A DNA stretch of 64,000 nucleotides from NCBI GenBank assembly GCA_903813345.2, contig CAIIXF020000013.1, positions 215,008 through 279,007 of the forward strand, read 5' to 3'. This document shows positions 42,112 through 64,000 of the stretch, in pieces; the stretch's first letter is position 1; each line of letters starts with the position of its first letter. Position numbers and translations under genes: made by a program. The DNA comes from Owenia fusiformis. Taxonomy: Eukaryota; Annelida; Polychaeta; Sabellida; Oweniidae. The notes below the pieces were generated by a model, which did no database searches, was not told where the DNA came from, and saw only the letters and a list, made by a program, of their open reading frames with translations.

Positions 42112-42920
42112 TCACTGGTTCCCAACTGGTTATAAAGATATTACATCTTTATAACAAAATGTACGAACTTCCATCGGAGGAAATTTTTATTTTCATCACA
42201 AGGAAGTCAATTTGTATTCAAATAATTTACCCGAGTGTTAATTTCCTCCAAGTTCATCCATTTTGTTATTAAGACATAACACCTTAATAACCAGGGGGTC
42301 ATTAACAGAACTTTCGTAAAGATACGAATTCGCAAGTCAATTGTTAATTTCATGGATTTGGTAAATGTGCATTAACAGAACTTTCTTAAAGTTGCGAACG
42401 ATTCACAAAAGTTATGAAAAAATGACGTCACATATGCTTTCGTTCGTAACTTTAATAGCACCTCGGACCCTTTCGTAACTTTGCGAATTGGCATATTTCT
42501 CATTCATTTCTTATGTAAGGTATACAGTTTGGCAAAAACAAATTGTTTTTTATATGCATGCCAAGTTTCAAGCTAAAATATCCACTAATTCTTGCACGAT
42601 TAGCAAATATGTTCCCGAGCTGGGAATTTTTGAGATTGCGGAAACAGGTTTAATCACAGCGCGCAATGATATTAAATGACATCATATTTTTATTTGTGCT
42701 AAATAATGATGAAAGATGACGTCACAATAAGAAATTCGTTAACGAACGATAAAAGTTACGAATGACTTACGAAAGTGTTCAGTTAATGGCCCATTCGTAA
42801 CTTTACGAATTCGTAAGTCATTCGTAATTATTTAAATATTTACGAATCTATAAAAATACGAATTACGAATTTGTAACTTTGTGAAAGTTCTGTTAATGAC
42901 CCCCAGTTGGTGACCAGTGA
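42112..42920. mobile_element. TIR element with TTA target duplication (Harbinger-like MITE)
   Basis: The ends are TCACTGGTTCCCAACTGG and the complement of CAGTTGGTGACCAGTGA, flanked by TTA at 42109-42111 and 42921-42923. Inverted similarity continues through TATAAAGATATTAC and CAAAATG. A three-base TTA duplication fits PIF/Harbinger insertion preference. It is interrupted by the nested element 42295-42903; without that insert it would be only about 200 bp. Confidence 0.8.
42295..42903. mobile_element. Nested TIR element (609 bp, CAG duplication)
   Basis: The inverted ends begin GGGGTCATTAACAGAACTTT. CAG stands on both sides (42292-42294, 42904-42906). Removing the insert and one CAG restores the outer element's right arm. 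The interior is rich in TACGAA/TTCGTA words. No coding capacity. Confidence 0.85.
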
Positions 42921-43523: not shown

Positions 43524-46500
43524 TTATTTCACATTCCTTATAATTATTTTGATCATTTCATGATAACTGTAATAGATAGGCATGACACTTATATCTACAT
43601 TTATTAATGCTCTACTGGTATAGACATGATCAATACATGTTCCACCTTCTGTAGTTGGTATATCTGTGTCTGAGAGTAATAAGTATCGTTTGCGCATCAT
43701 GAAATCGTGAATGTAATGTTTCTTTGAATCCAATAAATTTTCATTAAAATCACCTACGACGAGAACTTTGTCATGGTTTTTGTGAACATGCTGCAAAATT
43801 TTCTCCATTTCTGTTATGAATTTAGTTTTCTGCATTTTAGGCGACTTATATATAGTTATAATTGCAATATCTTTAACAATAGTTATAGCATTGTCTAATG
43901 GTGATGGTATGCTGATTGTTTGCACATTTCCTAAAATGCTTTTATTATAAATTGCAATGCCACCTTCATGGTTTGATAAGTTTAATACTTTTCTATTGAC
44001 TAAGTGTGGAGAGTTAAATGTTTCAATCTCAAGGATCCCACTTACTTTTTCATCTCTAAGCCATGTTTCTGTGAGACAAATAATGTCACAACAAGACAAA
44101 TCAGTGTTAGACTTAACATCTTTTATGTGAGCAATCAAACCTTGTGTATTGTGATAGATAAGGCTTAGATCATCTTCTGTTGCAGTTTCATATTTGGGCA
44201 GGTCAAAGTCTGGCATTTCGTCTAAAGCTTTTGCCATTTTTTCATCACAGTAAATTGACTTTGGATCATAATCGATAATGTAGAGACCATCAGATGAAGT
44301 AACTCTACTAAAAGCAACATATGCTTGACCACCAGCGAACATATCTTTGCAAGAAATTGCTAGTCGGTTACATGTTTTTCCTTGTAACTTATGTATAGTG
44401 CAAGCGTATGATGGAATAAGTGGTATTTGCTGTCTCATAAACTTGCTATTGACTTCATCATTATATGGTTCAATACGTATAGATTCAGGATGAACTTCAG
44501 TCTGATTTTTATATCTGGTCTTAATACCTACTTTTGGATTATCAAACTTCACCCATACAGCACTTGGCATATTGTCGGATTCCTTCTTAAACTCAATTGC
44601 AGTTACAACACCAAATGCACCATTAGCAAGTCCATCAGCAATACATATATTCTTTATCAGAAGAACTTCTGTACCAATACAAATTTGCAATTCATGAAGA
44701 AGTGTATCTGCTCGCTGTTTTGGTTCTTCATCAATTTTTTTCCATTCTTGCCCCTTCAATTTATTGTGGTCAATTGCTTTTATCTTATATATTTTGGCAT
44801 TTGTCGATTTTGCATGTGAGAGTATTCTCTTCCGATTATATGCATCAACATTGACACGCTTTGAATATACCCTCATAACATCTTCTGGAATCGGTTTCTT
44901 CATTATTTGTCTTATAAATTCATCATCTTGAGCTGATATCCTTTCTCCTTTTTTAAGAACTCTAATCCTATTTAAAAATTCTGCATATTTCATATCACCC
45001 TTTTGTCTCATGATTTGTGTAAGCTCTATTTTCTTGAACTTTTCCCAAGGGTTATAATTTGTTTCATCAGACTTAAGTAAACTTTTCTGTTTGACTGGAG
45101 GCAATTGATAAAAATCCCCAAATGCTAATATTGAAGTATCGCCAAAGTCAGGATTATCACCAGGTTTAATTTGCTGAAGCCTTCCTCGTACTGTATTAAA
45201 TAGTCTAACGCTTACCATAGATATTTCATCAATTATTAAATCTTTCAGAGATTCGAGTCTCATTTTCAATGGAGCTATCTTGGATTCTTCAAGTTCCTCA
45301 TACACTCTAGATAGATATCGTGAAGTTATTCTGAATGCAGAATGTAACGTATTGCCATTAATTTGGAAGGCACTTGTACCTGTTGGACTAGTTAAAAGCA
45401 CACTCAAATCATTTGGATGCTTTAAAAGGTTTCTCAATAAATGGGTAGCAATGTAATGAATACATTTTATTAGGTGTGATTTACCAGTTCCAGCTTTGCC
45501 ACAAATATGAAGAAATAATGGTTTTATTTTCTTACCCCATGATAGTTCTAGGCATTGTTTTCGTATCAAGTAAAATATTTGTTTTTGTTTTGTGTTCATA
45601 GATCTTATCAATTCCATGGCTTCATTTGTCGGTATTGTGTCCGTTTGTAATTCAACTAGACAATTCACTTTTCCTGTTTCCTTGTCTTTGGTTTTAAAAT
45701 CAATGTCAGGCATATCAGTTTCATCAATGTCATCAGATATTGGTTCAATATTTTCAGAAATACACTCTTGTCTTTCTAGTTCTTGCTCAGGAGCTAAATT
45801 AGCCCATGCATTCTCATACGAATCTCCGTCAGATAATTTATCTTGTGCAGCATTTAATTCATCACCAGTTACATCATAAATACTTTTATGTTTTGTTACA
45901 ATTTCAGAAACATTAAACAATTTACCTCCTTGTTTTATTTTGCCACATTTAAAATAGCCTTCAAATGTTTCATGTTTAGTAGGTCGTAATTCCTTATCAC
46001 TTCTGTGTGGGATGAACAGTTGGAGCATACTATGATAATATTCATCTGGATTAGTTTCCTTTGAGAACTTTGGGTAGCGTATAATAGCTGGTGGACTTTT
46101 TGATCGCTTTTGTATAAATCCTAAACCAAAGTCTAGTTTTATTTTTTTGGATGTTTCCTTCTGATTTTCTACTATATCTTCATCATTGTTATATGTCACA
46201 AGTCTATATTGTGATGCAAATTCTGCCAAGCATAAATCATTGAATTCAACACTGTGTGGTCTTGCAAAATATCTATCTATGATACTTGTTGCCCATATTT
46301 TATCATCTTTCTGTTGACGAATTACTGAAATTGGTAGTGACATTTTAATAGGATTGTTACCTACTGGAAGGAAAACAGTTTGTCTTGAGCATTCTTTGAG
46401 ATGAAGATTACTTGCTCTGTATACGGCTTCTTGAGCACTAACTTCTCTATGTTTCATATATCGGTAACCAATGATTTTCATGAGTTTAGAAGCTGAGGAG

Positions 46501-49500
46501 TTTTGTTCTTTGGCTTCCTGTTCTGCATCTATAAGATTCTGACTCATTTCTCTTTCCTGTTTTGATATATATGATACAATGTAGACAACACATGAAAATA
46601 CATCAAGGACAAATTGTATATCCATATTGGCTTCCCATGCTTTCAAAAGGTCTGCATTGTAGTTATTTATCCAAATGTCTTTAACAGTTCTCTTCAAAAA
46701 TATGGCTTTCCTTTTACTTTTTGTCAGAGTTCTTATAATATTTTCATATTTTTCCATTGTTAAGCCTGGGTGTGCTTTTTCAAATATTTCATTTAATGTC
46801 ATTTGAGAATAATCTTCAGAGAGAAAGAATTCCCAGAGAGATTGAATGATATCTTCGGCTACTTTTATTGGTATACACTCTGTAGTCTCATCAGGAATTT
46901 TGTCATCAATGATAAAGGTTTTCTCAGATGGCAGTCTTGGAAAGTGAAATCTACAAGTTCTTTTATTTTTCTTGCAACTTTTTGAGTGGTTTTTGCTGTG
47001 TGTTTGGACTTCGTTTACTATTCTGAACAAGTCTGAGTCAGTTTTTTCATCGGGCAATGCACAAGTGATATACTTATCTATGAATTCTTCAACTTCTAAA
47101 TTTGGTGATTTACCATAAACGGGAGCATCTTCGATCCAAATTAAACAATGTATATGAGGTGATCCTCTCATTTGAAATTCAACTCTGTAAAACATGTCTT
47201 TCACTTTACCAATTGGTTCAGCTGGTGATTTAATAACATCATTCATGAACCTTTTCCATCTATTATCAAACATTCTAGTTACAGTGACCGGATTATCCCT
47301 TATCAGTTCACAACGTTCTGTTTTGGTTATTTCTTCTGGTAATCGAGGGTCATTGTTTTGTTTGAGAATTGTGTTAATAACTTCATTCCATTTCATATCT
47401 GCTGACGAAAATGAGCAAAACCATGTTGGTGGACCAAGTTGCCTAATCATTGCAAATAAATCTTTTTGTACGTGTTGCCAGTATGGTGGTGTTCCACGAA
47501 TCGGTTGCAAATAGTGATGACCAACATTCTTACGGCAAAGCATTTCACTCTTTTCTTTGTTGATAATATCATCAGCTGTTATTGTATTACCGCTTGTTGA
47601 TTTTTCTGTTGTTTTTCTGAGGTTAATACTAACTTTGGATATTATATTCTGGAGTTCAGTCAAAAATTGGGCATAAAATATATATTGAGTATTCTTAGCA
47701 AATCTCAAGTCTGCAGAGAATAGCCTATTACCAAAATATTTTGTTGCTGACAACTTTTTTTCTCTATTTTCATCATGAGCGTTTCTACCATTTGGAAATA
47801 GAGTGGGAAATGAAAGAGCTTCATTATTCTTTTCTTCAAGAATACGTATTGGTTTGTTTCCTTCTCCTGGTGCTATGCAGTATATTTTGTCAAGATGTGT
47901 ATCCAGAATGTGTTGAGCAATGTTATCAGGTTGCAAACAAGTATCAGATACTACACCCATCATATCATTTGATGTGTCTTTCCCCCGATTCTCTGTGCTA
48001 TTTTCTAGTTGACATACATTACAGTCAATATCAGTTTGTTTCAATTCAGGTGTCATTCCATATTGCTTTTGATCTTCTTCACTTAAAATTTCTGGAGGTA
48101 TTAAGTTCACAAAATCATCCAATATATTAATGTCTTTGTAGTGCACATTGTTTTGTTTTAGGTATCCCAATGCCGCTTTAACTTTTGAAATACTGACTGA
48201 TTTATATAAGTAATGACCTCGATATTCAAGTTTGCGTTTGAGTTTGACAGTCAAAAGCTGCTCATCATGAATTGGTCTTGGTAAAGCATTTATGGTTTCC
48301 TGAGCATTATTTGACACAGATATAACAGGACCATTCATACCAAATTGCCCTCCTCTTGGTAATTGTACTACTTTCATAAAAGGTAAACGTAACGATACTA
48401 AATGTTGTTCAAGGACATTCAAATCTTTCAATTCCGCTGGTATTGTTTGTAATAACAAATTATTGCTATTAGCCATTGGGGGAATATTGCCATTTTTAAA
48501 ATGTACATGACAGTTCTGACATATCCATAGTTTACTTATTGGAGACTTACAAAGTTCACAGTTTTCTTTGCATGATATTTCTCTAGTATGCAAATATATT
48601 TTTGAAATACACTTTTGTTTGTTTTCCTGAGATACTTTAGAATATGCATTTCCCTTGTAGGCTAGCACCTGGTGTTTAAATAGCAATCTGTGACAAACCA
48701 CACAAATATAGTTTAGTCCATCATTTATTGTTTGTTTAAAGTCATGAATTACTCTTTCAATATTTTTTCGTTTGGCCTTTTTGGTAATGTGTTTTTCTTT
48801 ACCTTGGATAATTTTCATTTTTTTGAAGGTTTCATCAGTGTCATATTTTTGTTTGATCTGTTGCTTAACTCTTTCTTTAAAGTCTTGATCAAATTCATAC
48901 TTTTCTTTACTGTATCGCTTGACTCTTTCTTTAAAGTCTTGATCAAATTCATACTTTTCTTTACTGCATCGCTTGACTCTTTCTTTAAAGTCTTGATCAA
49001 ATTCATACTTTTCTTTACTGCATCGCTTGACTCTTTCTTTAAAGTCTTGATCAAATTCATACTTTTCTTTACTGTATCGCTTGACTCTTTCTTTAAAGTC
49101 TATATCACATCCATATTTTATTTTACTTTGGTTAAGCTTGCTATGTTTGAGGTCTTCATCAGTTTCATATCTTTGTTTGCTTTGGTTAAGCTTAGTACGT
49201 TTGAAGTCTTCATTAGTTTCATATCTTTGTTTGCTTTGTTGCTTGCTTTGGTTAAGCTTAATACGTTTGAAGTCTTCATCAGTTTCATATCTTTGTTTGC
49301 TTTGTTGCTTGCTTTGGTTAAGCTTAATACGTTTGAAGTCTTCATCAGTTTCATATCTTTGTTTGCTTCGTTGTTTGCTTTTATTAAGCTTAGTACATTT
49401 GAAGTCTTCATCAGTTTCATATCTATGCTTACTTAAAAATTTCTTTTTATCTTTTAACTCAGGTGTAGATGCATATTTCTCTCTATCATGTTCCAATTTT

Positions 49501-52500
49501 TTATTTTTAAAGGTTTCATCAGTAGTATACCTTTTTTTCAGAAGAATGTTACGCTTGTATTGCCTTTGATCGGACTTAGACATTTTTCTCAATTTATCCT
49601 TTTCTTTATCTGAGAAAATATCAGTTTTGCAATCTTCAGCGCACAGGTTACTGTTTTCTTGATTATTCACAGTATTTTCAGAACAATGCACTCTAGCTTT
49701 ATCACATTTTCCAGGAACTAGCTGTCCACGTTCGCATGTGAATTTACATAGGTCAACATATGATTTTTTGATTTGAGCATTTTGTTCATGATCGGACATT
49801 AATTCTATACTTTTAGATTCTTTTCTTTGATGTACATCAATGTTTTCATCAAAATTTAATCTTCTTTTGCAAAATGTTCTTTGGGCTGACTTTGAGGACA
49901 TGGATGGTTGACTAGCAGTAAGTTTTTTTACTTCATTTTTTGCTTGGTCATTTCTACATTTTATTTTGCTGGATATTGTTGATAGTTTAGGCTCGGAGTT
50001 TTGATCTTTTATTTGCTTAGATCTCCTACATTCTTCAAATGTTATACCATCAACAGAAAATCCATGTTTGGCATTAGTTCTGTTTATTAAACTATCAGTT
50101 AAAGACTCGGCAGTGTTCCACAAGAATAAGGATATTTTTTCCAATGAATTCGACATGTGAATTATTGCATTTCCTGAAACATTAATTCTTCCTTGATCAT
50201 CCCTACTGTGTGGGTCAAATGAATAATACATGGCTTTGTTCTTCATCACACATGTTGTTGTATTGAGGAATGTAACAAGGCATGCATTGTAATCTGTGAA
50301 AGCGTTTTCAATAGCTTCATGTAAAGTTAATCCTTGGCTATCTTCTTCAGTATAATTCCAGTATTCTAAGTAGCCCTGTTGTTGTCTTGATTTGTATGCA
50401 TAATTTTTGTTGTTAAAGCTTAAGATTTTTGGAATATCAAATATTTCCAAATAACCTGTTGGAGTTGGATTTTGAGATATGATACTATTGTATAATATGT
50501 TGCCTCGGACTAAAACATCAGTAATGAATTCTGCATTAATTTCATGGTGACTTTCATTTTGAAGCATCAGTAAAAATGACAAAGAGTTAGCATAACATTG
50601 TTTTCCTTGACCTATGCCTTCAAACATTACATGATTTTGAGACATATTTCCTTCTATAACTTGATCAAATATCTGTATTGCTGATGCATTGTTCTTTGCA
50701 GGATTTGTATTTGTATTTGCATCTATCACATCTGTTACCACGTCATAATGACATTGGCTAGAATGATCTAGGTACATACATCTGTTAACAAATGTTTTTC
50801 CAAATACTGTCCATCTATTTGTGTTTTCAAAAGTAAGTATCTGGGTTTGGAATAAATGGCAAGCTGCGGCAATTTCAATATCAGTTCCCCATACAGATGA
50901 TCTATTCATATTTTGGGATTTTATATGATTTTCCAATTCTGTTGCGGTCATTCCTCTTGTTTTACAAATGTATTTCTTACAGCTTTGGTCATTTCTATGA
51001 GACACTATACTCTGTCTAATAGCAGTGTGGTCATTTTCATCGTTTGTTATACAATATGCAATTGCTCTAAAAAGACAGTTTCCATCACCTCTGATATGTT
51101 TTAAGGATTCATATTTTGGCTTCATAAAGGCAATTTCAACATTGTCATATACAGGATCATTGCTTTTTGGCGTATACTTGAGATGATGGATGTTACATAA
51201 ATGAACTTTCTCTTGGTTTTGCAAAGGGTTAAAATTCCCAATAGGCTCACTGTAGGTTTCTTTCAAAACAGTTACATCATCGGGACTTTCCTTTGATTTA
51301 TCCTTAGAATTATCTTTTGGGTCGTAACCTCCAGTTTGGGAAACTTTGTATTTTGTTCCAGTTTGTAAATCTTTCGAAGACACATTTTCATTAAACAGTT
51401 TGTCACCATTGTCAGCTTCTAAGATTTCAGTCTTTTTCACTTCATATTTATGGTTCATGGAAAACAGTATTTCATTGTTTTTGCTATGACTATGAATCGT
51501 TACTGGTGGAACACGTAAACATCCTTCAGCAAAAATATCTTGCATTTGTTCTACAATTTCTACAAAGTATGGATTTTCACTGTCTGGCATATCTTTAGTT
51601 TCTGGTTTGTTTCTAGTTGTATCAATATCTGATTTGTAACTAAGATATTTGGATCTTTTCAATTCTTTCCTGTTTGAACAGTGTTCAATATTCAGCTTGA
51701 ACAGTGTTTCAGTGTTATCAATGTTTAAGATTTTGAGATCATTATTTTCAATTGGTGGTACTCTTACAGTGTTGTCAGACAAAAACTGTTCTAGATCATG
51801 GTGTGGCAATACATGTTTCTTTGGTTGTGAAGCTCTGAAAGTACTATCTGGGACATGCTTTTGTTGTTTTGAAGTTGAGATGCTTTTCAATCGTCCAAGT
51901 TTACGCCTCGATAGTTTCTGTGTTTTTATAAGAATAGGCTGTAATGTTTCATTGTTTTTTAAATGTCGTTCCATTTTCTTTCTTCTTGCTTTCATTTTGA
52001 TAACTTCAGATCTTTCTTGTCTCCTTATTTTGTTACTTAAGTACTTTTCTGATTTCAACAGAGATCTAAGAATATCATTGTTATCAGTAAGAAGTGCGTT
52101 CACATCATGAATAATTTTGAGAGATTTTGCAAGAGTATCAATGCAGTTTGCTATTAAAATATCTTTTGGTTGTGTGACAGTTCCAACCTCTGCTGACACA
52201 TTGGCAAATTTGGTAAGTTTTCTGAGTTTCTTCTTCTCAGATTTCTTTATGGTATTCTGTATTAACAGTGTGGCAAACTCAGATATTAATGAATCTTCCA
52301 TATCTTCTGCTAACACCTTGTGATGGTTTGTATTGTTCTCAGTAATATTAGAAGTTGTACGGGATATTGTATCAATGTTTTTATACATATATTCAGTTGA
52401 ACATGAGAATGCGACTTCCGAAAGTATGGTCTTATTGAAGCACAATGGTACTGGCATTTCTTGCTTTCCATATGGTATTTTAGGTAAATTAGGCACTTCA

Positions 52501-52820
52501 GTTTGTATTTCAGTTTGTACTTCAGCTTGTACTTTAGGCACAGTAAGCACTTCAGTTTGTATTTCAGGTACAGTAAGCATTTCAGTTTCTATTTCAGGTA
52601 CAGTAAGCTCTACAGTTTCTATTCTAGGTACAGTAAGCACTTCAGTTTCTATTCTAGGTACAGTAAGCACTTCAGTTATTCTGGGTACAGTAAGCACTAC
52701 TACAGGTTGGGAATGCATTTGGTCTCCCTCCAGCCGCGATGCAAATGCATCACCCCCACCGCGACCTTCGCAGGAATCATACCCACCAACCCTTCGCTTC
52801 TTCCTCCGATCAGGTGTGGC
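43524..52820 (-). CDS. Autonomous Helentron transposase, main exon (OTU/Rep/helicase/endonuclease)
   Basis: One uninterrupted frame of about 3,100 codons; the same frame stays open up to an ATG at 52922. I place the exon start at the acceptor TTTTTTACAG|GCC (52820), in phase with an upstream exon. Domains by approximate residue: basic N-terminus and LTVP repeats (1-130); OTU cysteine protease, GDGNCLFRAI to SQCHYDVV (595-720); second cysteine-protease-like domain, GKQCYANSL to FDPHSRDDQG (750-925); lysine-rich repeats (1110-1360); Cys-rich DUF6570-like region (1395-1590); Helitron N domain and Rep, GSPHIHCLIW and YIVSYISK (1690-2120); PIF1-type helicase, GKAGTGKSHL and LIIDEISMV (2460-2870); AP-like endonuclease, LTETWL, GDFNEN, GTCIDHVY (2910-3120). 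No stop or frameshift is seen, so it is plausibly active or recently so. It replicates the element by rolling circle. Confidence 0.93.
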   Translation of the reverse strand, partial: ATPDRRKKRRVGGYDSCEGRGGGDAFASRLEGDQMHSQPVVVLTVPRITEVLTVPRIETEVLTVPRIETVELTVPEIETEMLTVPEIQTEVLTVPKVQAEVQTEIQTEVPNLPKIPYGKQEMPVPLCFNKTILSEVAFSCSTEYMYKNIDTISRTTSNITENNTNHHKVLAEDMEDSLISEFATLLIQNTIKKSEKKKLRKLTKFANVSAEVGTVTQPKDILIANCIDTLAKSLKIIHDVNALLTDNNDILRSLLKSEKYLSNKIRRQERSEVIKMKARRKKMERHLKNNETLQPILIKTQKLSRRKLGRLKSISTSKQQKHVPDSTFRASQPKKHVLPHHDLEQFLSDNTVRVPPIENNDLKILNIDNTETLFKLNIEHCSNRKELKRSKYLSYKSDIDTTRNKPETKDMPDSENPYFVEIVEQMQDIFAEGCLRVPPVTIHSHSKNNEILFSMNHKYEVKKTEILEADNGDKLFNENVSSKDLQTGTKYKVSQTGGYDPKDNSKDKSKESPDDVTVLKETYSEPIGNFNPLQNQEKVHLCNIHHLKYTPKSNDPVYDNVEIAFMKPKYESLKHIRGDGNCLFRAIAYCITNDENDHTAIRQSIVSHRNDQSCKKYICKTRGMTATELENHIKSQNMNRSSVWGTDIEIAAACHLFQTQILTFENTNRWTVFGKTFVNRCMYLDHSSQCHYDVVTDVIDANTNTNPAKNNASAIQIFDQVIEGNMSQNHVMFEGIGQGKQCYANSLSFLLMLQNESHHEINAEFITDVLVRGNILYNSIISQNPTPTGYLEIFDIPKILSFNNKNYAYKSRQQQGYLEYWNYTEEDSQGLTLHEAIENAFTDYNACLVTFLNTTTCVMKNKAMYYSFDPHSRDDQGRINVSGNAIIHMSNSLEKISLFLWNTAESLTDSLINRTNAKHGFSVDGITFEECRRSKQIKDQNSEPKLSTISSKIKCRNDQAKNEVKKLTASQPSMSSKSAQRTFCKRRLNFDENIDVHQRKESKSIELMSDHEQNAQIKKSYVDLCKFTCERGQLVPGKCDKARVHCSENTVNNQENSNLCAEDCKTDIFSDKEKDKLRKMSKSDQRQYKRNILLKKRYTTDETFKNKKLEHDREKYASTPELKDKKKFLSKHRYETDEDFKCTKLNKSKQRSKQRYETDEDFKRIKLNQSKQQSKQRYETDEDFKRIKLNQSKQQSKQRYETNEDFKRTKLNQSKQRYETDEDLKHSKLNQSKIKYGCDIDFKERVKRYSKEKYEFDQDFKERVKRCSKEKYEFDQDFKERVKRCSKEKYEFDQDFKERVKRYSKEKYEFDQDFKERVKQQIKQKYDTDETFKKMKIIQGKEKHITKKAKRKNIERVIHDFKQTINDGLNYICVVCHRLLFKHQVLAYKGNAYSKVSQENKQKCISKIYLHTREISCKENCELCKSPISKLWICQNCHVHFKNGNIPPMANSNNLLLQTIPAELKDLNVLEQHLVSLRLPFMKVVQLPRGGQFGMNGPVISVSNNAQETINALPRPIHDEQLLTVKLKRKLEYRGHYLYKSVSISKVKAALGYLKQNNVHYKDINILDDFVNLIPPEILSEEDQKQYGMTPELKQTDIDCNVCQLENSTENRGKDTSNDMMGVVSDTCLQPDNIAQHILDTHLDKIYCIAPGEGNKPIRILEEKNNEALSFPTLFPNGRNAHDENREKKLSATKYFGNRLFSADLRFAKNTQYIFYAQFLTELQNIISKVSINLRKTTEKSTSGNTITADDIINKEKSEMLCRKNVGHHYLQPIRGTPPYWQHVQKDLFAMIRQLGPPTWFCSFSSADMKWNEVINTILKQNNDPRLPEEITKTERCELIRDNPVTVTRMFDNRWKRFMNDVIKSPAEPIGKVKDMFYRVEFQMRGSPHIHCLIWIEDAPVYGKSPNLEVEEFIDKYITCALPDEKTDSDLFRIVNEVQTHSKNHSKSCKKNKRTCRFHFPRLPSEKTFIIDDKIPDETTECIPIKVAEDIIQSLWEFFLSEDYSQMTLNEIFEKAHPGLTMEKYENIIRTLTKSKRKAIFLKRTVKDIWINNYNADLLKAWEANMDIQFVLDVFSCVVYIVSYISKQEREMSQNLIDAEQEAKEQNSSASKLMKIIGYRYMKHREVSAQEAVYRASNLHLKECSRQTVFLPVGNNPIKMSLPISVIRQQKDDKIWATSIIDRYFARPHSVEFNDLCLAEFASQYRLVTYNNDEDIVENQKETSKKIKLDFGLGFIQKRSKSPPAIIRYPKFSKETNPDEYYHSMLQLFIPHRSDKELRPTKHETFEGYFKCGKIKQGGKLFNVSEIVTKHKSIYDVTGDELNAAQDKLSDGDSYENAWANLAPEQELERQECISENIEPISDDIDETDMPDIDFKTKDKETGKVNCLVELQTDTIPTNEAMELIRSMNTKQKQIFYLIRKQCLELSWGKKIKPLFLHICGKAGTGKSHLIKCIHYIATHLLRNLLKHPNDLSVLLTSPTGTSAFQINGNTLHSAFRITSRYLSRVYEELEESKIAPLKMRLESLKDLIIDEISMVSVRLFNTVRGRLQQIKPGDNPDFGDTSILAFGDFYQLPPVKQKSLLKSDETNYNPWEKFKKIELTQIMRQKGDMKYAEFLNRIRVLKKGERISAQDDEFIRQIMKKPIPEDVMRVYSKRVNVDAYNRKRILSHAKSTNAKIYKIKAIDHNKLKGQEWKKIDEEPKQRADTLLHELQICIGTEVLLIKNICIADGLANGAFGVVTAIEFKKESDNMPSAVWVKFDNPKVGIKTRYKNQTEVHPESIRIEPYNDEVNSKFMRQQIPLIPSYACTIHKLQGKTCNRLAISCKDMFAGGQAYVAFSRVTSSDGLYIIDYDPKSIYCDEKMAKALDEMPDFDLPKYETATEDDLSLIYHNTQGLIAHIKDVKSNTDLSCCDIICLTETWLRDEKVSGILEIETFNSPHLVNRKVLNLSNHEGGIAIYNKSILGNVQTISIPSPLDNAITIVKDIAIITIYKSPKMQKTKFITEMEKILQHVHKNHDKVLVVGDFNENLLDSKKHYIHDFMMRKRYLLLSDTDIPTTEGGTCIDHVYTSRALINVDISVMPIYYSYHEMIKIIIRNVK

Positions 52821-53422
52821 CTGTAAAAAATTAATACTTACTGTACTCTTAGTATTTTTTTGTATGCCATTATATTTTGCGCTTTTTAAGAGCATTATAA
52901 ATTTGTAAAATAAAGAAGCCATGAAATTCTAATGATCTAAATTCACAAAAAATACATCCTCCAATCACAGGGCTTCAAAATCCAGAATATATTCTTTCTT
53001 TTTACCCCCTGCGATAAGCAGTTAGTATTTCCCCTATTAAGAACTCGTAATCTGATTGGTTGTTGCAACAGAAATCACTCAGAGTTTGCAGTATTTTACA
53101 GCTTGGCAATAAAGGTATTTTTGAAAGCATGAGCCTGGTCTAAGGCAAAACCAACAAATTTTTGTGAGGGCACTAGTATTGCCGATATTAATGTTCAATA
53201 AGATAAGATAAACATGCAAATTTACATAATAAAAAAACATGCGACGTTTTGAAATGTCTCAAATCACCAAATATGATTTAAAAATTTGAAAAAAGTGAAA
53301 GTTACAGAAAACTAATAGAAACTGAAAATTTTCAATAACACAAAAAAAGCAAAATATAAAACCATGGAATATTGCAAAAAGTATAGTATCTGGTATTCAG
53401 ATGAATGAATGACTAATACAAA

Positions 53423-53977
53423 CTAGACAATAGCAATGCCAAAGCGTAGCAAATCCCATCGAACAGCAATGGCTGGAAATATTTACAAAAATTGTCATTA
53501 GACAGTGTGTCATGCTTATAGTATTCACATACCAATTATGAACAAAATTGCTCCACTACTTTTTGAGTTACAGCAAAAATAGTAAAATAAAGAGTAAAGG
53601 CCACCATTTGTCAAGGTGGTCGCCATGTGCTTCTTTAATATCAACATTTCTAGCTTTATTAATGTCCTATATCATTTTTTACATTTAAAACATATTGCTA
53701 TTACAGTTTTACACATTGCACCTAAATAACTGTAAAATTGACACTAAATGGCTGCCATTTTTAAATGAGTGACCATTTTAAAAATCAGCTTTCTAACAGA
53801 ACTTCTACCCCTATAGGGCATATATGTACAAAATATTAACAAAATCAGGCCAATGGTATTCGAGTTATTGCCCTAACGGACACACAGACGTTTATACGTA
53901 CGGACGTACATACGGACAAACGGACAGATGGATGGAGGCATTCTCTATATCCCTCCGAAATTTCATTCGATGGGATA
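53423..53977 (+). mobile_element. Pearl/HINE-like element, family A (copy 3, in Helentron intron)
   Basis: The 5' segment AATGCCAAAGCGTAGCAAAT is followed by CCCATCGAACAGC. It has less than one core unit (no tandem array), an ACGG/ACGT microsatellite (53876-53935), and hairpin TATCCC..GGGATA at 53948-53977. It lies on the strand opposite to the Helentron gene, inside its predicted intron. It is a short-core version of copies 1 and 2. Confidence 0.75.
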
Positions 53978-54883
53978 ATGAATACATACCTATGCAAATC
54001 ACTTTCGCAGGGTTAGGATGCTACATAGTCAGTTTGATGTATCCAGTACCTGAGATTGATTGACTAATTCACTCAAACACACTAGATGTCATATTCATAC
54101 TCACATACTACAACACTGCAACTGGAAGCTTAGTGATAATAAATGAATAATAAAAAGAGCACAGGTAGTAACTTATCCAATGCCCTTGACTATTCAGAAA
54201 ATCCCCAAGACTGAGTGTTTCATTACATATTTTCACTACATTCATACACACTGTCTTAAAAACATACAGTGGAACACTTTCGTCATCGATGAATCAATAA
54301 GCACAATTGTCTATCTCATGACCTGTAATTGCAAAAACAGTTGTCTATCTTGATTTATCCTGAAATGTTTACAGCTCAGGAAATTCAGCATCTTTAAATG
54401 ACATAAGTTATGCACAGACATTTTCACTCAATTGTTCCCAATGACTTGGAACAAGAAACTCTGCCACTTAAAGCCCAGCCATTGATCATAAATGAGTGAA
54501 AATATATAAAGCCAACACCCAATTAAACTTCCAGGTTATAGCACCAATCACCTTACCTGATGTATCCAGAGCTCTATACTACTTGGCTAGATTCCATTAC
54601 CCAGGATGCCTAAAGGGTTCACTCAGTTACATACTAACAAATGCTCGACTGTCCTTAAGGAATCACAACTTGAGTTGTCAAATTTTTATAACTGAAACCC
54701 CAGACAGTGATCATTCATTGACTATAAACATGTTTCTCAAACTCACAACATCTAGGTAACAGCATACCTACCCAGTAGCTCTAGATGATGAAATATAACA
54801 ATAGTCATATAACACTGCTCTCCATCTAGTTTACAAGGTTACAACATAGATGACCATTTTTAGAACTGTTGTTAATAGTTTAC

Positions 54884-54952
54884 CTTTTTTAGGTCTAACT
54901 TGGACCTCTTGACATATTCTCTTTTCCTCAATCCTTTTGGTTTTCTCGCCAT
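54884..54952 (-). CDS. Predicted first coding exon of Helentron gene
   Basis: An ATG at 54952 opens 23 lysine/arginine-rich codons (MARKPKGLRKREY...) ending at donor GTAAAC (54883-54878). Phase 0 here meets phase 0 at the acceptor before 52820, so splicing removes a 2,063-bp intron and avoids the 34 codons encoded by the long ORF upstream of the acceptor. The ATG itself follows a pyrimidine-rich TTTATTTACACAG by two bases, so another 5' exon or a trans-spliced leader may join here. The basic peptide continues naturally into ATPDRRKKRRV. Untested inference, but both splice sites and phases agree. Confidence 0.6.
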
Positions 54953-55679
54953 GGCTGTGTAAATAAAAAATAAAAAATAAATAATCAAGACAATAAATAT
55001 ACATTTTCTATGATATATGCCAGATTTAAAAAACTTCAGAAATTAACTTTTTGTATCATGTATGACAAAGAGCTGGAGTGTTACGCTATTTTTCATTTTA
55101 TATGCAATTTAAAAATTTCAACAGTTAAATATAAGCTATTTTTATTTCATCTAAAATCAAATGTATCAATTGAGGCAATTTAAGTATAAAATCTAGCCAA
55201 AATTTAAATTCATCTTATTGTTACATTGTCATACTTAATTAGTCAAAACATGATTGAGTATATGGTTTGTATTTATGAATGAGTATTCAATAAAATCATG
55301 TTTGAAGGACACCAGAACTATGCTTAAAATTCAAAATTTAAATACTAAATATTTGGTTTGAGATTCTGTTAAAAATTCAATATATATATATGGTGCGCTT
55401 AATAAACTTTCAACTTCACTATTGTATTTATGGTATGGGATATATTTATCATAAGTGTATTTCTATTAGGCATATATATCATAGAATTTGTATTTTTAAT
55501 TCATTGAATAAAATGTTATGTAAAATTATAGCACAGTAGATAGTGTAACCAATTTCAACTGTTTATCCTTTGGGTATTGAGTGTGAGTGTATCAAAATAT
55601 GACAAATTATGACAAATTATGACAATATATCATTACGAAAGAAAGTTTGATAACATAGTCACTTTGCTTGTATTTGCAA
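54953..55679. other. Region 5' of the Helentron gene
   Basis: AT-rich DNA with a polypyrimidine tract (minus strand, 54955-54985) next to the predicted first exon. No promoter motif or 5' terminal structure of the element could be assigned. TATATATATA lies near 55382. Confidence 0.5.
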
Positions 55680-55830
55680 ATGCAACTATCAGCTGTCGGA
55701 TACTGGATTAGCTTAATGTTTTATGGTCAACCCATTTAAATATGAATATTACATGCCACTATTTTGTTCATATTAAAATGAATTGGTCATAAAATAGTAG
55801 GTTAATCCAGTAGCCAACAGAAAGTTGCAT
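55680..55830. mobile_element. ~150-bp hairpin MITE
   Basis: TGCAACTATCAGCTGTCGGA at 55681 and the complement of the right end (TGCAACTTTCTGTTGGCTAC) pair, and pairing continues to TACTGGATTA/TAATCCAGTA. Non-coding. Confidence 0.75.
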
Positions 55831-56960
55831 TCACTAATATAAACTCAGCCAATTAAGCAATATGTTAACTTTAAAGTGAACAATTTATTACAATGTCTAA
55901 TACAAAATTGATGAGACCTTAGAAAAATAAAATGTACATTTAATACTTTAATAAAATAATCCTTAATTGAAGAAATTAGGTATAATTTTAAAAATATACC
56001 ACTATGGACAAAATATTGTAAGAGGGTATAGCCAAACCAATACAGTGACAAGGATATTACAGGTGGAAGAATCATAGAACACATGAAAGGCAAAAGAGGA
56101 ACTAGCAAGAACTGGTCTTAAGTAGAAGGCATTAGTTGAAAGAGTAGTAGAAGGAATATATAAGCACAAATGCCAAATGGGAGCTGTGACTAAAAACTAT
56201 AAAGAACCCCAACGAGAAAAGCAAACTCTAAGTGTAAATCTGTCATAAGAAAAGTAGACCCTTTATATCCCAAAACCATGATCTAACGTGAAAACAAACA
56301 ATGTCTAACATCCCCCCCTCCAATCGAGAAGCAGTATCACAATCCAGGACCAGAACACCAAGGGACATTTCATTCATACTGAAGTCATTACAATACATGT
56401 TGAAGAAAAATTGAAAAAATTGATAGCCAATACTCATAACATCAAAACAACATCATTAAATGAACAATGAAGTAACAAGTACACACTGGCATGCTGAAAA
56501 TTCCAATTAAAAAACTTGTTCACATGAAGGCATGACCAACTCCATGAAAAGAAAACGACACATCCTTAGTAATTTGATCTTGTTAAGGCAAAGGGCACTT
56601 GGAAGAAACCCAGGAGAAGTGTACTGACCACCACAAGAAGTTGGTTCACAATTCAAGGTTGTTTGGTTGATTTGCATTAAAACTTCTATTGCCAAATCAC
56701 TGCACTATAATGATACTCATCAGACCAGATATTCTCCTGTCTTAAAATAGTACAAAGCATAACAAGGACAAAGGTCACAGTGTCATGAGGATGCAAAAAA
56801 GATCTGATTGAAGAAGTTGCCAAAGGCTGTATTGTCCATTTATTGTCCAATTGAAATTGGATGAAAGAGATTCCCTTCATTCACCCCACACTACACAACA
56901 TAGCTTAAGGTTGAGCGAGTATTAATCGCTATTAAGGAATTCTAATTGCAAAAAAACTGA
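55831..56960. other. Unassigned stretch
   Basis: Several 60-90 codon frames on the minus strand (around 55845, 56507, 56686) lack a recognisable family. Two abutting ones at 56507-56880 could be parts of one decayed coding region, but I cannot name it. Confidence 0.35.
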
Positions 56961-56964
56961 TTAG

Positions 56965-57175
56965 TAGATGCACTTACCTTGTACTTAATTTTAATGGATA
57001 TATAACATCATATGCAGTTATAAGTTGTTATAAAGGAAGTGTGTGGTAACAGCAGCTCATCACGTGAGCTAATAATAACTGATAAGTAGATTCACTCACC
57101 TTGTAATTCATTTTAATAGATATACAACAACCAATTATAGGTCGTTATAAAAGGAAGTTGAATTTCTTCCACTTT
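56965..57175. repeat. Tandem duplication, ~122 bp
   Basis: CTTACCTTGTACTTAATTTT near 56973 and CTCACCTTGTAATTCATTTT near 57095 start similar units that end in TTATAAAGGAAGT and TTATAAAAGGAAGT. Each begins, on the minus strand, with a GTAAG or GTGAG donor-like word. No exon was recognised. Confidence 0.65.
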
Positions 57176-58618
57176 GGAAGATTCATATTATCATTCACAA
57201 TGGAAACTATACATAATCTTAGAACACATTTGTACTTTAAAAAGAAGTTGTGTTAGTTCTCAATAAGATTTTTAGACTGAGTTTGATTTATAATACATTC
57301 CTTTGGTTAACATGGCAGAATGTTCACAGTTCAAATTTGATTCAAAGATTTAAATGCTTTCTTAATTTATATTTGTAGAATTTTTTTGGAGACCAAAAAT
57401 ATTAGAAATAAAATAGTGAGATTCTGCATTTTAGTCTAAAGATTCAGTGAGAACCCTATAGTAAATAGGTTGATGGACTTAAAACTATCTGATTACCAAT
57501 TACCAATGTTGACAGAACATGTACTCCCCATAGCAGCAAACCTGAAAATACTTCTATTTCTTCCAGTTGTAAGTAAATGCTCACTTCCTGTCCATTCTTA
57601 TTTTGCTGATTGTTTTTTCCATCTTTTTCATTTAGCCTCAGATTGGTTTGTTATATCCATTCTTCTTTGAAAGTATTCTTTTGTCATTGAATGTATCTTT
57701 ATGTTTGTGTGTTTTCATCAGCCCTCTTGTTAATGCCACATTTTCCTTAATTTGTTATCCATTCTCAGGTCAAACTCTCCAGTACATAAATAATAAATAT
57801 ATCCTCTTAAAACCTAACCACTTCGAGTAAACTTGCTTGGACACATCTCATTTAGCAATTGCATCTTGGTTAAACAAAGCAAGAATCACAAGAGTCTGGT
57901 ACTACTGATGCCTTGTATTGATTGCTTGACTTTCCCAGCAATGTCTGCATTCATAGAATAAAGCATACAAAAGATAAATAAACTGATTGAATAATATAAT
58001 GTGGCAGATACAGAAATACAGTCACTGCAGGTTAAATTATTGGTAATGCAATACCCCAAAGAGAAACAATTCTAATGCCAAAGCTTGAGATCCAAGGGTG
58101 GAGCAGGTGGTTTCAGAGAAGCTTGCAAGAACCACAGCAAGAATTATGGCTTCTGGTTACCTCATCACAAAGTCATATACAGCAGTCCAGCATTTCCTTC
58201 TCTTAAATCTTGGAGATATCACCTAAAGTAGTTTAAAGCAATTTGGTTTTCATCCTGGAGTTTGGTAAATCAACCTACCTACAATTTGAAATTAACAGCA
58301 TTTAAGAAAAATGTTCTAAATTCTAAATGGGCATGGCTTTTAAATAATTTCAAGCCTCAGACATTGAAATGTCCTTATTTCTTAATTGAAACAGATTGAT
58401 TTCCATTTATCTACAATGTTCCATCTATTCTTGCAGGTTCTGTCTTTCTGAAACCAGGCATTAACATGCAAACTGTCAGCACCTATTTGTTACAAATGCT
58501 CAACTCCAACTGCTATTACACATTCCACAAAAACGAAAAAGTATAATATAGAATAAAAGTTGACCAAAAATAGAAAAACATGCAGACTGACACTGACACT
58601 AAATTACTGAACAAGCTA
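57176..58618. other. Unassigned stretch
   Basis: No gene or repeat boundary is recognised. Small frames near 57470 and 57648 are hydrophobic and low in complexity, typical of AT-rich DNA. Confidence 0.45.
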
Positions 58619-58927
58619 CTGTACACCCAGTACACCCAGTTTAAATTTCGCAAATTTTGAGAAATACCAATTTCGCGGCCATTAAATTTCGCGGATTTCA
58701 AAGGTTTAAATTCCATTATTCTCTGAATCCTCAAGCTCTGTAAACTAATTTACCTTATCTACAGTAATCATATTTGGATAAGATTTACAATTTCTAGATC
58801 TTAGTCAACGGCATTGTTGCACCTCAGCCTTTAATTCGCAAAATTAACGATGATTTATTTTCACGATTTTAACACAATCGCGAAAAGCGCGAAACTAAAT
58901 CGCACGCGAAAAATACCGGGCGTACAG
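58619..58927. mobile_element. 309-bp TA-flanked TIR element rich in TTTCGCG
   Basis: The ends are CTGTACACCC and the complement of GGGCGTACAG, with TA on both sides (58617-58618, 58928-58929). The interior has repeated TTTCGCG/CGCGAAA words in both orientations, which form a long imperfect hairpin. Non-coding. Confidence 0.75.
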
Positions 58928-59682
58928 TATGTTCTTGAGGTTTAAATTATTTCTGAGTCAATTTTCTGATTGACCAGCACCTTTTCATATGGACCGAAAC
59001 TGAAGTACTCCGGGTTATGTTGAGCAGCTTAATTTGATACCAACCACCTGACTTTTAAGGTCAAAGGGTTGTTTTAGCAGTCTCAGTTTTGCCCTAAATG
59101 TCTACACTGTTTGCCAGAGATGAATGATGTGTGCTAGTTGCTAGTGTATCACTTTGATTGGTTCCTCCTGATTCATCTGGTATTTGTTGTTCAGCCAAAA
59201 ATTGGATTCCTCTCTATGCTGATACTGTATTTGTCTTTAATTTGGCAAAGGAGTTCATGACCATTAGACTGACAATCACAATGTTACAGCACTTTAAACA
59301 ACATGCCCCAGTGGCTAATATTGGGCTGTAGGCAAACCTGCTCATGTCATCTAAATTGTCCTATCTGACTTCTACCTGTGGGTATACACCAAAGATAGAG
59401 TGTATGAGAATGACCTCAGGACAATTGCAGACCATAAAAGGAAGATCATCCATGTCATTCAGGCCATACCTGCTGAGGAATACAGTTGGATTGTTGCCAG
59501 CTTGTGCAGGTTTGCCTACAGGGCGATGATGGCCACACCTGTGTCATGTTGTTGAAAGTGCTGTATTTTGTGGGATAGTAGGAAATTATATGTTCTACAA
59601 ATATGTGAAAAATCAGGAAGTTATTTCTTAAAATGACAAAGATATGAGGAAAATGCAGGGTTGCCGTTTTTTGACCACCCTG
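58928..59682. mobile_element. Fragment with CAGGGTG-type right end
   Basis: The right end, read on the minus strand, starts CAGGGTGGTCAAAAAACGGC at 59682 and is followed by TA. The left partner was not found, so the start is arbitrary. A plus-strand segment near 59447-59560 (HVIQAIPAEEYSWIVASLCR) could be a transposase C-terminus. That match is weak. Confidence 0.4.
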
Positions 59683-59854
59683 TATGATCCCAGTCGCAGT
59701 CCACCATCAGCCCCATATCCACCCAACTCAAATCAAATATTCCATGACAATATCACCTAAGTAGATATCCATGTTTTAAAACTTTTTAAACTAAAAAAAA
59801 CTCAACGTTTGGAAAAAATTTGGAAAACTGAATAGGCTTACAGCAGAATGACTT

Positions 59855-60030
59855 ATACACCATTCAAACGTTTGTGAGAGACCCCCCCCTCCTCCCATTG
59901 GCATGAATAGGGAATTTAACATCCTCACCCCGTCATTGGCCAAATAAATGTGTCAATTTCCCCTCTCTCAAATCAAATTCCCCAACCTCCCTGCGTGGGG
60001 GGTCTCAGGCAAACTTTTGAATGGTGCATT
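59855..60030. mobile_element. ~175-bp MITE with C-run TIRs
   Basis: CACCATTCAAACGTTTGTGA (from 59859) and the complement of the right end (CACCATTCAAAAGTTTGCCT) match, and both continue into GAGACCCCCC. The interior is short and non-coding. Confidence 0.8.
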
Positions 60031-60760
60031 ATTTAAACTTAATTAAATTTCTTATGGAAAATTGTCAACAGAATTCTATTATGTCATCAAGTCTTTTAAT
60101 GGTTAAATATGCAAATCTCTCTATTGCATCATCAATGGGAACCTATAACAATAAGCCTTTAATTAAAAATGGAAGCCTAAAATAAAAGAAAAAAACACAA
60201 AATTCATTCCTTAAAGAGGAAATTATGTCCTCTAAAATAAACAGTATGATTAGAGAGCTTTCGATAAAAGTTGTTTCAAAAACGTATATGGTATGTAAAC
60301 TTTGACTTTAAAGGGTCTTGTCACACTAAAATCAATTTGAAATTTGAAATTGATTTTCATGTACTTTGTTGACATAAATAGTTTCCCAATTCTATACCTC
60401 ATTCATCAATCAGTGACTGTGATTGTAATATCTGTAACATCATTGTAATCTGTACATTATCAACTCAATACCTAGCTCTTGTGACGTGGTGTTCTACACA
60501 CAAGACTCTTTAACGTGGTTCGTCACACAGCAGAGTAGATTATTTCACAGTTCTCAGTGATCCCCACAGCATTAAAGCAAGTGGGCACAGCCCCCATCTG
60601 AGATTTTTAAAACATGCTTGCACTCACCTGAAAATCCATTTGCACCAACTTGAAAATGAGAAAAATCATGAAAAATGGGCACATTTTGACCAATTTTGGT
60701 CTGAATTGTGAGAATGAGAATTTTGCACCCACTTGACAAAACAAGGCACAGACGTGAACA
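60031..60760. other. Unassigned stretch
   Basis: AT-rich, with no gene. The 64-codon minus frame near 60607 overlaps the start of the following element and has no signature. Confidence 0.45.
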
Positions 60761-61466
60761 ATATCGTACCTAAAACACAGCATTGTGGTCTTGTTGACCA
60801 AGAAAGCAAGATGGCCGCAGAAAAGTTAATCAGCTCTAGAACTTATCACTGTGTAACATATGTAAAAATTTGAACGGTTTGGCTAGAAACCTGTAGACAA
60901 ATCTTGAAAGTGAAGATTTTAGGACGGAAAATCCAAAATGGCCACCTTAAAATTTTCCCAGAATGCCCAAAAACCAATCAGTTCTTGACGTTAGTATGTA
61001 GAAACATCCCTGAAAATTTCAGATGAATTCCTCAAATGGTTTGGCTAAAAATCTGTAGACAAGTCTTGAAAGTGAAGATTTTAGGACGGAAAATCCAAAA
61101 TGGCCACCTTAAAATTTAACCAGAATGCCCAAAAACTAATCAGTTCTTGACGTTGATATGTAGAAACATCCCTGAAAATTTCAGATGAATCCCTCAAATG
61201 GTTTGGCTGAAAACCTGTAGACAAGTCTTGAAAGTGAAGATTTTAGGACTGAAAATCCAAAATGGCCACCTTAAAATTTACCCAGAATGCCCAAAAACTA
61301 ATCAGTTCTTGACGTTGATATTTAGTAACATCCCTGACAATTTCAGATAAATCCCTCAAATGGTTTGGCTGGAAACCTGTAGACAAGCTGAAAAGTGAGA
61401 CGCCGCCCGCCCGCCTGCCGCCCGCCAAGCTGACTACAATATCGTACCTCTTGTTAGGTACGATAT
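60761..61466 (+). mobile_element. Pearl/HINE-like element, family C
   Basis: The 5' end is ATATCGTACC (60761-60770). Core units spaced 162 bp (marker GAAGATTTTAGGAC at 60912, 61074 and 61236) are related to the family B core. A CCGC/CCCG-rich microsatellite follows (61401-61427). The terminal hairpin ATATCGTACC..GGTACGATAT is at 61439-61466. The 5' ten bases are identical to the hairpin's left stem, a clear subterminal repeat. No coding. Confidence 0.8.
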
Positions 61467-61751
61467 AAAAACTGTGGAGAACACTGGTTCTTATAAAAGT
61501 TTAAGTTGAGATATAAGTTTAGAATGTATAAAAAGGTATATAGTAGACAATGATTGTAAACTTATAAATTGGATCTACATGTAAAGCCTAACATACGCAT
61601 GATCCCTATTCAAAATTAATAAGCTGAATATGCAAAGTATCCAATCAAACACTTCGACTACCATTTTGATACATTAATCAATCCAATCTGTGCTAGCGAT
61701 TTCTGGAGCGAGCCATTTGTTGCATAATAAACTCTCTCACCAGTATCTGTA

Positions 61752-61948
61752 CAGGGTGTTTCATAATGTTCATCCCCAAATTAGGATAGACTTTAATGTA
61801 TATATCATATCGGAATTCCTATTTCATTTTAGACCAAGACACCTCACACATGTGATAATAAAAGTCACAAATGGTTTGCATTTGAATGTTATGTTATGTC
61901 CAACCTCTGGAGATTTTTGAGTAATAGCTTTCATTATGTAGCACTCTG
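61752..61948. mobile_element. 197-bp TA-flanked MITE
   Basis: The ends CAGGGTGTTTCATAATG and the complement of CATTATGTAGCACTCTG match with few changes. TA stands at 61750-61751 and 61949-61950. Confidence 0.65.
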
Positions 61949-61950
61949 TA

Positions 61951-62735
61951 TTTTTATTTAGAAGCACAAGTTTACATACAAGTTGACCAAATAACTTACA
62001 TCGAAAGCTCTCTATTGATCGATCTGAAGCTGCAAAGATATCCAAAACAATATAAAGTCAAATCAATGCAATTTTTCTTAAATACCTCTTGAGCTCTATT
62101 TGTGTGGCTCAACTAACAACTTCATAAAATTTTAAGTCCATCGACCTTAGTTACTGATGCCCATATTTCATAAGCTGAAATCAGTAGATAACTGGCAGAG
62201 AGTCTGGTTGAGAAACATTGAGTGTGTGTGTGAATAGAGCCTTCAATTTGTGTTAATCTTTCACATTCATTATGATATACTGTACTTGTATCTTAGCATA
62301 TTGCTTGAGCTACATCAAGCATGAAATCCCTACCTAACCTATTACTAGCTATGCTTAAATGGTAACAAATACATTACTATTATTGCAACAATAAAGGTTT
62401 TCATTGACACAAAGTTACACTATCCATGCTCTACATATAGCAAAGAGCAGCTGGAATATTTCAGGCCTGTGGGGCTACACCATAGTACTTGATGGTCCTG
62501 TGAAGAAGCAGATCTGACTCTTTTTTGTTCTTCACTCGTCATTCCACAGTTTCTGCTGCTGATTTTGTAACTCTTACACAGAATTTTATTCCTACCCTCT
62601 GTTCAATTTTATCAATTTGAAAAAGTTCTGGTAGCATATTTGACAGACAAAAAAGGATGAGATGCAAACAACTTTACTCTGTTTTGAATAAAATTAGTTA
62701 AAGCACTCATTCTCAAAATCATCAATTTTAGGGGA
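61951..62735. other. Unassigned stretch
   Basis: No gene, RNA or repeat was recognised. Confidence 0.45.
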
Positions 62736-62739
62736 TTTT

Positions 62740-63075
62740 TCAAAAGTTGCCCTTGCGCTTTTTAACATGACTTTAGCTTTCAAATAACACTGCAGCTTGG
62801 GCTGTATTCAAATATCTGTGTTTTAAATTGATGCCCTTGTGCCTTTCAATATTGAGTTTGTACTTTCAAATGTTGACTCGTGTGCTTTTATTGAACAATT
62901 GTGTTTTGAAATGTTGCCCTTGTGCCTTAGCTTTCAAATTTTGCGCTTATGCCTTTTAATATCGATTCTGTGTTTTCCAATTTTGCCCTTATGCCTTTAA
63001 ATATTGATTTTGCCCTAATGCAAATTTTGCCAATTGTGCTTTCAATCAAATATCTGTTTTTGAAATGTTGCTCAG
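62740..63075. repeat. Degenerate ~60-80 bp tandem repeat
   Basis: Words such as TTGCCCTTGTGCCTTTCAAT, TTTTGCGCTTATGCCTTTTA and TTTTGCCCTTATGCCTTTAA recur, followed each time by ATATTGA or ATATCGA and a TGTG/TTTTC segment. Spacing is irregular and units are diverged. No coding sense. Confidence 0.6.
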
Positions 63076-63818
63076 TGCATTAAATATTTGCATTTATTAA
63101 TGTTAGCACACACATTTTAATTTAAGCAACATGTATGATTAATTCTCCAATTTGTTTACTACCGCCTTAAATATACATGCAATTTATCTTGCAATAAATC
63201 TGTGACATCGTATCAAATGATGAATTTACTTAAGATCCAAAATGCTAAATCATTTAAATTCTCAAAAATGTTGAAATTCTCCAAATTCCAAAACTTTGCA
63301 TGCATCTCATCCTTGAACTACTTATTCCCTTACAGAATTTACACATTGTTTTTGGATACTTAGAAATACATTTTAAATGTTATATTTAATTTGAACATCT
63401 ATTAAACCGTCCATCTAATAGTTATCTATCTACTCTATCAGGCTAATACATGAACTTCCCTAAATAATACTATTAAGAGAAAATTTAAATTTCTATTGTA
63501 AGGTGGGTTATGTATGTTGTGTAAGCATATCTATCCTCCACAAAGAGACATGGCAGTTTCCTAATTTCTCTTAAAAATTTTCAAACACTTCAATTTTAAT
63601 ACAAATTTAATTATTGCAAATATTTTCAGAAAAATATTATAATACTGAACATTAGCCCTAATTAAAAGTTTCCGCAAGTGCATGACGAGCCAAATTTGGT
63701 GATCTGTCAACTCGATCAACTCAACTGTTAGCTTCAGATTTATTTTAACAGGTTCATAAACAAACAAAATAGTGAACAAATACAACTAGAAAGCAACACA
63801 AAAACATTTTTATCTTAT
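63076..63818. other. Unassigned stretch
   Basis: AT-rich DNA; no feature recognised. Confidence 0.45.
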
Positions 63819-63820
63819 TA

Positions 63821-64000
63821 CAGGGTGACCGGAAAAAAAGGAGACCATTGAAATAGGCAATATCTCCTAAAATAGACTAGTGACATCAATGAAATTTGGC
63901 ATACATCAGGACAGTTCTATGGAAATTTGTTCCTGAAAGTGTCAATACAAGCAGTCAACTGGTTCAGGAGCTATGATCATTTACATAACATGCTCCAAAT
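63821..64000. mobile_element. Left end of a TA-flanked TIR element (truncated by window)
   Basis: TA (63819-63820) precedes CAGGGTGACCGGAAAAAAAG, followed by ATATCTCCTAAAATAG. Near the edge, ACATGCTCCAAAT matches the interior of the 28684-29255 element. The other end lies beyond the window. Confidence 0.65.

Follow-up and report, generated by a model that had tools for sequence, protein, structure and literature searches.

The window, as we call the whole 64-kb stretch of Owenia fusiformis DNA analysed here, contains a single open frame longer than 240 aa. This frame (43524–52928, minus strand, as are all features of the element given below) runs for 3134 aa from stop to stop, with its coding part probably beginning at 52820, and it carries no lesion, as the initial annotation had stated for a frame of ~9.3 kb. 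Every domain match in a Pfam scan of the 3134-aa protein lay above its curated cut-off, and the matches follow the order OTU, Herpes_teg_N, DUF6570, Helitron_like_N, PIF1 and Exo_endo_phos. The OTU cysteine protease (50799–51092; Pfam residues 613–710) has Asp615, Cys618 and His727 in place, the last of these just past the Pfam end, and its profile matches OTUD3 and OTUD5. Beyond the second peptidase domain (Herpes_teg_N, treated below) come Lys/Arg/Glu-rich tandem repeats (48600–49530; 18- and 22-residue units with 54- and 66-bp spacing), a tract whose length varies from copy to copy, and then DUF6570 (48114–48494; Pfam residues 1479–1605). The transposition machinery occupies the rest of the protein: an HUH Rep (Helitron_like_N, 47139–47729; Pfam residues 1734–1930) with the HUH motif HIH at residue 1925 and a two-Tyr motif near residue 2116, a PIF1 helicase (44943–45599; Pfam residues 2444–2662) with its Walker A motif at residue 2477, and a C-terminal AP-type endonuclease (Exo_endo_phos, 43575–44153; Pfam residues 2926–3118). 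An HUH Rep and a PIF1 helicase in one protein, with an AP-type endonuclease at its C terminus, mark the element as a Helentron, and the domain matches and active residues together bear out its first description as a Helentron with OTU, Rep-helicase and AP-endonuclease modules. An Rfam scan of the 64-kb window gave no RNA match.

Gene model and boundaries of the element

Upstream of the main frame we could read directly a first coding exon (54884–54952), which begins with the ATG of a basic 23-codon peptide, MARKPKGLRKREYVKRSKLDLKK, and is followed by the phase-0 splice donor GTAAAC. In the copy on C5, where DNA identity is 82%, the exon-1 peptide is nearly unchanged and the same donor is kept; this conserved exon explains why the initial annotation had drawn its outer limit at 54952. 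We infer that exon 1 is joined to a phase-0 acceptor at 52821, which would define an intron at 52821–54883 (donor AAG/GTAAAC, acceptor TTTTTTACAG/GCC). In copies C2 and C399 the frame is broken upstream of the 52821 acceptor. Part of the intron region (~53420–53984) is ~87% identical to short non-coding elements that bear tandem repeats and lie on the large chromosomes, a family that possibly represents non-autonomous Helentron relatives.

Homologous 5' element sequence runs well past 54952, as non-coding DNA common to other copies (54953–63820; identity of up to 98.6%) that extends at least to 63820. We rejected 63820 as a shared 5' end of all copies: the last stretch at the right edge of the window (63821–64000) is the terminal part of a DNA transposon with a TA target (CCGGTCACCCTG/TA) that has entered the 5' region of the window copy, and nine other copies continue uninterrupted across the site. 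The true 5' end of the element therefore lies beyond this interruption. At the 3' side, the ends differ among the copies compared and no clean terminus was found among them. The terminal hallmarks of Helentrons are subterminal inverted repeats, a hairpin at the 3' end and insertion at TT.

Two smaller elements were also seen in the window. A ~723-bp repeat at 60744–61466 is present in the window, in C104 and in a copy on C13, and is absent at that position from C2, C482, C415 and C100; it is a nested insertion, with dozens of copies at ~95% identity across the chromosomes, some with ~324-bp tandem units. A ~620-bp element at 42284–42908, with inverted ends GGGGGTCATTAACAGAACTTTC and at least 36 copies at ~90% identity, is shared at the same place by three other Helentron copies.

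The second peptidase domain and its known relatives

The initial annotation had seen a second C...D-x-H domain next to the OTU and likened it to a peptidase of marine animals that it left without a family. Its peptidase character stands (residues ~760–960), but Pfam and profile searches place the domain in the VTD, or C76 herpesvirus-tegument deubiquitinase, family (Herpes_teg_N, PF04843). The domain spans residues 745–965 (50034–50696), with a Pfam match at residues 772–912 (E 2.6e-7), and contains Gln764, Cys778 and Asp905-Pro-His907. When a profile built from the window domain and 14 copies from the same genome, 15 sequences in all, was compared with solved structures, it matched the crystal structure of a Helitron VTD from zebrafish (8ADD, E 1.4e-15), the Waddlia VTD (8ADB, E 4.5e-6) and herpesvirus tegument proteins including cytomegalovirus M48 (2J7Q). 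By residue count, His907 aligns with the catalytic His453 of 8ADD (numbering per PMC9741609). An AlphaFold2 model of the window VTD from its single sequence reached a pLDDT of 30 and was discarded; homology to 8ADD and 2J7Q nevertheless predicts a papain-like VTD fold in which Cys and His would be in contact. A search of viral contigs for VTD relatives found none. The herpesvirus tegument deubiquitinases (M48, UL36, BPLF1) share with the window VTD its domain family, its catalytic motif and a significant profile match, whereas theirs is part of a virion tegument protein and ours of a transposon protein.

The combination of a VTD and an OTU in one Helentron was already reported in 2022, with 121 such elements listed, and the D-x-H motif is part of the published VTD signature (PMC9741609). 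The VTD-bearing Helentrons described there have the same Rep, helicase, C-terminal AP endonuclease, VTD and C...D-x-H site as the window element. In zebrafish, DrT2 carries a VTD and an OTU and DrT1 two VTDs; zebrafish Helitron VTDs cleave K48 and K63 di-ubiquitin in vitro, and a crystal structure has been solved (PMC9741609). The main text of that paper does not name the window element, which is known here from its sequence. OTU-bearing Helentrons share the OTU cysteine protease, for which a role in transposition or in cleavage of the Rep protein was proposed; the available portion of that report does not mention a VTD (PMC4067079). The architecture of the window protein is thus known. What we did not find in the literature searched are its OTU-VTD-OTU relatives and the exchange of a block between elements in the same genome, both taken up below.

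Copies, constraint and candidate function

The host assembly comprises 498 Mb in large contigs (C1–C12) and many small ones. PF04843 occurs at 37 loci, so this genome adds at least 37 VTD-bearing loci, most of them (23 of 37) in open frames of at least 2,900 aa. About 30 of the VTD loci sit on small unplaced contigs, so alleles or duplicates created in assembly may account for some of the near-identical copies. No OTU or VTD match is present in at least five Helitron-type frames with a length of 1,840 aa or more. One divergent Helitron-type frame (L019, C6:27.12 Mb) has a VTD and no OTU match, and two frames of ~2,000 residues (L020, C1:55.25 Mb; L029, C11:19.95 Mb) combine an OTU with DUF6589, the portion of them that was scanned showing no Helitron domains.

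The initial annotation had named conserved replacement of the Cys or His as evidence against a protease. No such replacement was seen, as Cys and Asp-x-His are retained in 37 of 37 other VTD copies examined, and every complete OTU accompanying a VTD keeps its Asp, Cys and His. Median dN/dS across families was 0.10 for the OTU, 0.19 for the VTD, 0.11 for Rep and 0.41 for the linker ahead of the OTU (Nei–Gojobori estimates, rough for the widest pairs, where synonymous distance exceeds 1), so the two deubiquitinase-type domains are constrained nearly as strongly as the transposase core. Rolling-circle transposons commonly capture gene fragments, and the OTU and VTD might on that ground be leftovers of host genes picked up in this way, without function. 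Yet the purifying selection on them is about as strong as that on Rep, and their catalytic residues are fully kept across families with synonymous distances > 1. Neither is expected of neutral passengers, and we regard this explanation as extremely improbable. Given the active residues kept in all 37 other copies examined and the median dN/dS of 0.19, the window VTD is very likely an active deubiquitinase.

The sequence shows an intact Helentron whose single protein sets an OTU and a VTD, members of known deubiquitinase families with kept active sites and under purifying selection, ahead of the HUH Rep, PIF1 helicase and AP endonuclease; we consider it probable that this exchangeable block serves to strip ubiquitin. 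Rep and helicase copy and move the element. The OTU and VTD would most likely take ubiquitin chains off the transposase, or off host proteins present where transposition occurs, the VTD acting on K48 or K63 chains by analogy with the zebrafish enzymes. Such removal would shield the machinery from the proteasome or from a restriction signal in the germline, to the benefit of transposition. The specificity of the window VTD and OTU may differ from that of the tested zebrafish domains, since these are distant in sequence and the DrT2 VTD is weakly active (PMC9741609). Alternatively, the domains might act mainly as binders of ubiquitin or of proteins like it, or the modifier they cut might be a different one, for instance NEDD8, which two zebrafish Helitron VTDs also cleave (PMC9741609). 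However, the complete catalytic triads in all copies point to catalysis rather than binding, and a third zebrafish domain is ubiquitin-selective (PMC9741609), so that we regard this alternative as very unlikely.

The initial annotation had proposed both ubiquitin removal and self-processing of the polyprotein. Of the two, ubiquitin removal is favoured because homologous Helitron VTDs carry it out in vitro. Under self-processing, the OTU, the VTD or both would cut the giant protein and free the Rep-helicase-endonuclease part from the N-terminal part, much as viral OTU-type proteases cut at di-glycine sites; viral deubiquitinases often process polyproteins as well (PMC9741609). One candidate site would suit such a model: some 80 residues ahead of the OTU, all families have a Q-x-G-G-Y motif (region 51327–51344; G-G at residues 533–534) that stays invariant despite the fast evolution of the surrounding linker, even in a family whose OTU is only ~44% identical. 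Yet this motif lacks the Leu and Arg of the ubiquitin tail, and it has no conserved counterpart on the other side of the two proteases, as the region from the VTD to DUF6570 showed no conserved di-glycine, and another candidate, LPRGGQ at residue 1526, falls within DUF6570 and is not conserved in L019, an element that does carry a VTD. An N-terminal RVGGY was rejected as a second cleavage-like motif, being absent from the C5 family. With one conserved motif to its credit, we judge self-cleavage unlikely.

Exchange of the block and three-domain relatives

The survey of copies and identities that the initial annotation had called for showed that similarity to the closest copies is unevenly distributed along the protein. 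Against C104, C2, C399 and C515_140, the window protein is mostly 96–99% identical over residues 1–800, and 66–93% identical past residue 1400. More generally, its block is 97–99% identical to that of elements whose Rep-helicase is only 82–86% identical. The 5' non-coding part, too, is 97–99% identical to C104 and C2, so that selection at the protein level cannot explain the similarity of the block.

Phylogenies of the two parts disagree accordingly. In the OTU+VTD tree the window clusters with C104, C2, C399 and C515 (95/100). In the Rep-helicase tree its partners are C13_374 and the C38 group (98/97), and C104 with its relatives falls together with C457 and the copies related to that one. 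Swapping in the opposite grouping was rejected in each tree by the AU test (p 4e-6 and 4e-57), values that are descriptive, as the groups were picked after the identities were seen. On this sequence evidence, a 5'-OTU-VTD block has been exchanged by recombination between Rep-helicase lineages, making it in effect a module passed from one lineage to another. The recently shared tract stops near residues 850–880, an older exchange boundary lies near residue 960, just past the VTD, and the nesting of the groups suggests that the C104 group received its block from the lineage of the window. Compared with its neighbour L032, one locus (L033, C515:177 kb) has an additional switch near residue 700, which suggests that recombination or gene conversion took place repeatedly.

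At seven loci (C1:21.11 Mb, C6:36.03 Mb, C328, C340, C500, C73 and C158) a single frame encodes OTU-VTD-OTU, and the active sites of all three domains are kept, the frames of the C1, C6, C500 and C158 copies being 3141–3200 residues long; an eighth candidate, on C337, is truncated where its contig stops. The stretch ahead of the second OTU resembles that ahead of the first, suggesting that the second OTU arose by duplication within the element. Neither this order with three active sites nor block exchange between Rep-helicase lineages was found in the part of the literature that we searched, which comprised main texts.

Elements with similar Rep-helicases and different deubiquitinase blocks, and the reverse, are natural swaps that allow one to ask whether the block influences the success of an element. 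More tentatively, the block may be a swappable anti-degradation module, traded among elements by recombination, with one lineage having stacked OTU-VTD-OTU; we hold this as a possibility short of an expectation. If true, it would point to ongoing selection on ubiquitin control of transposition, with the transposon and a ubiquitin pathway of its host engaged in an arms race.
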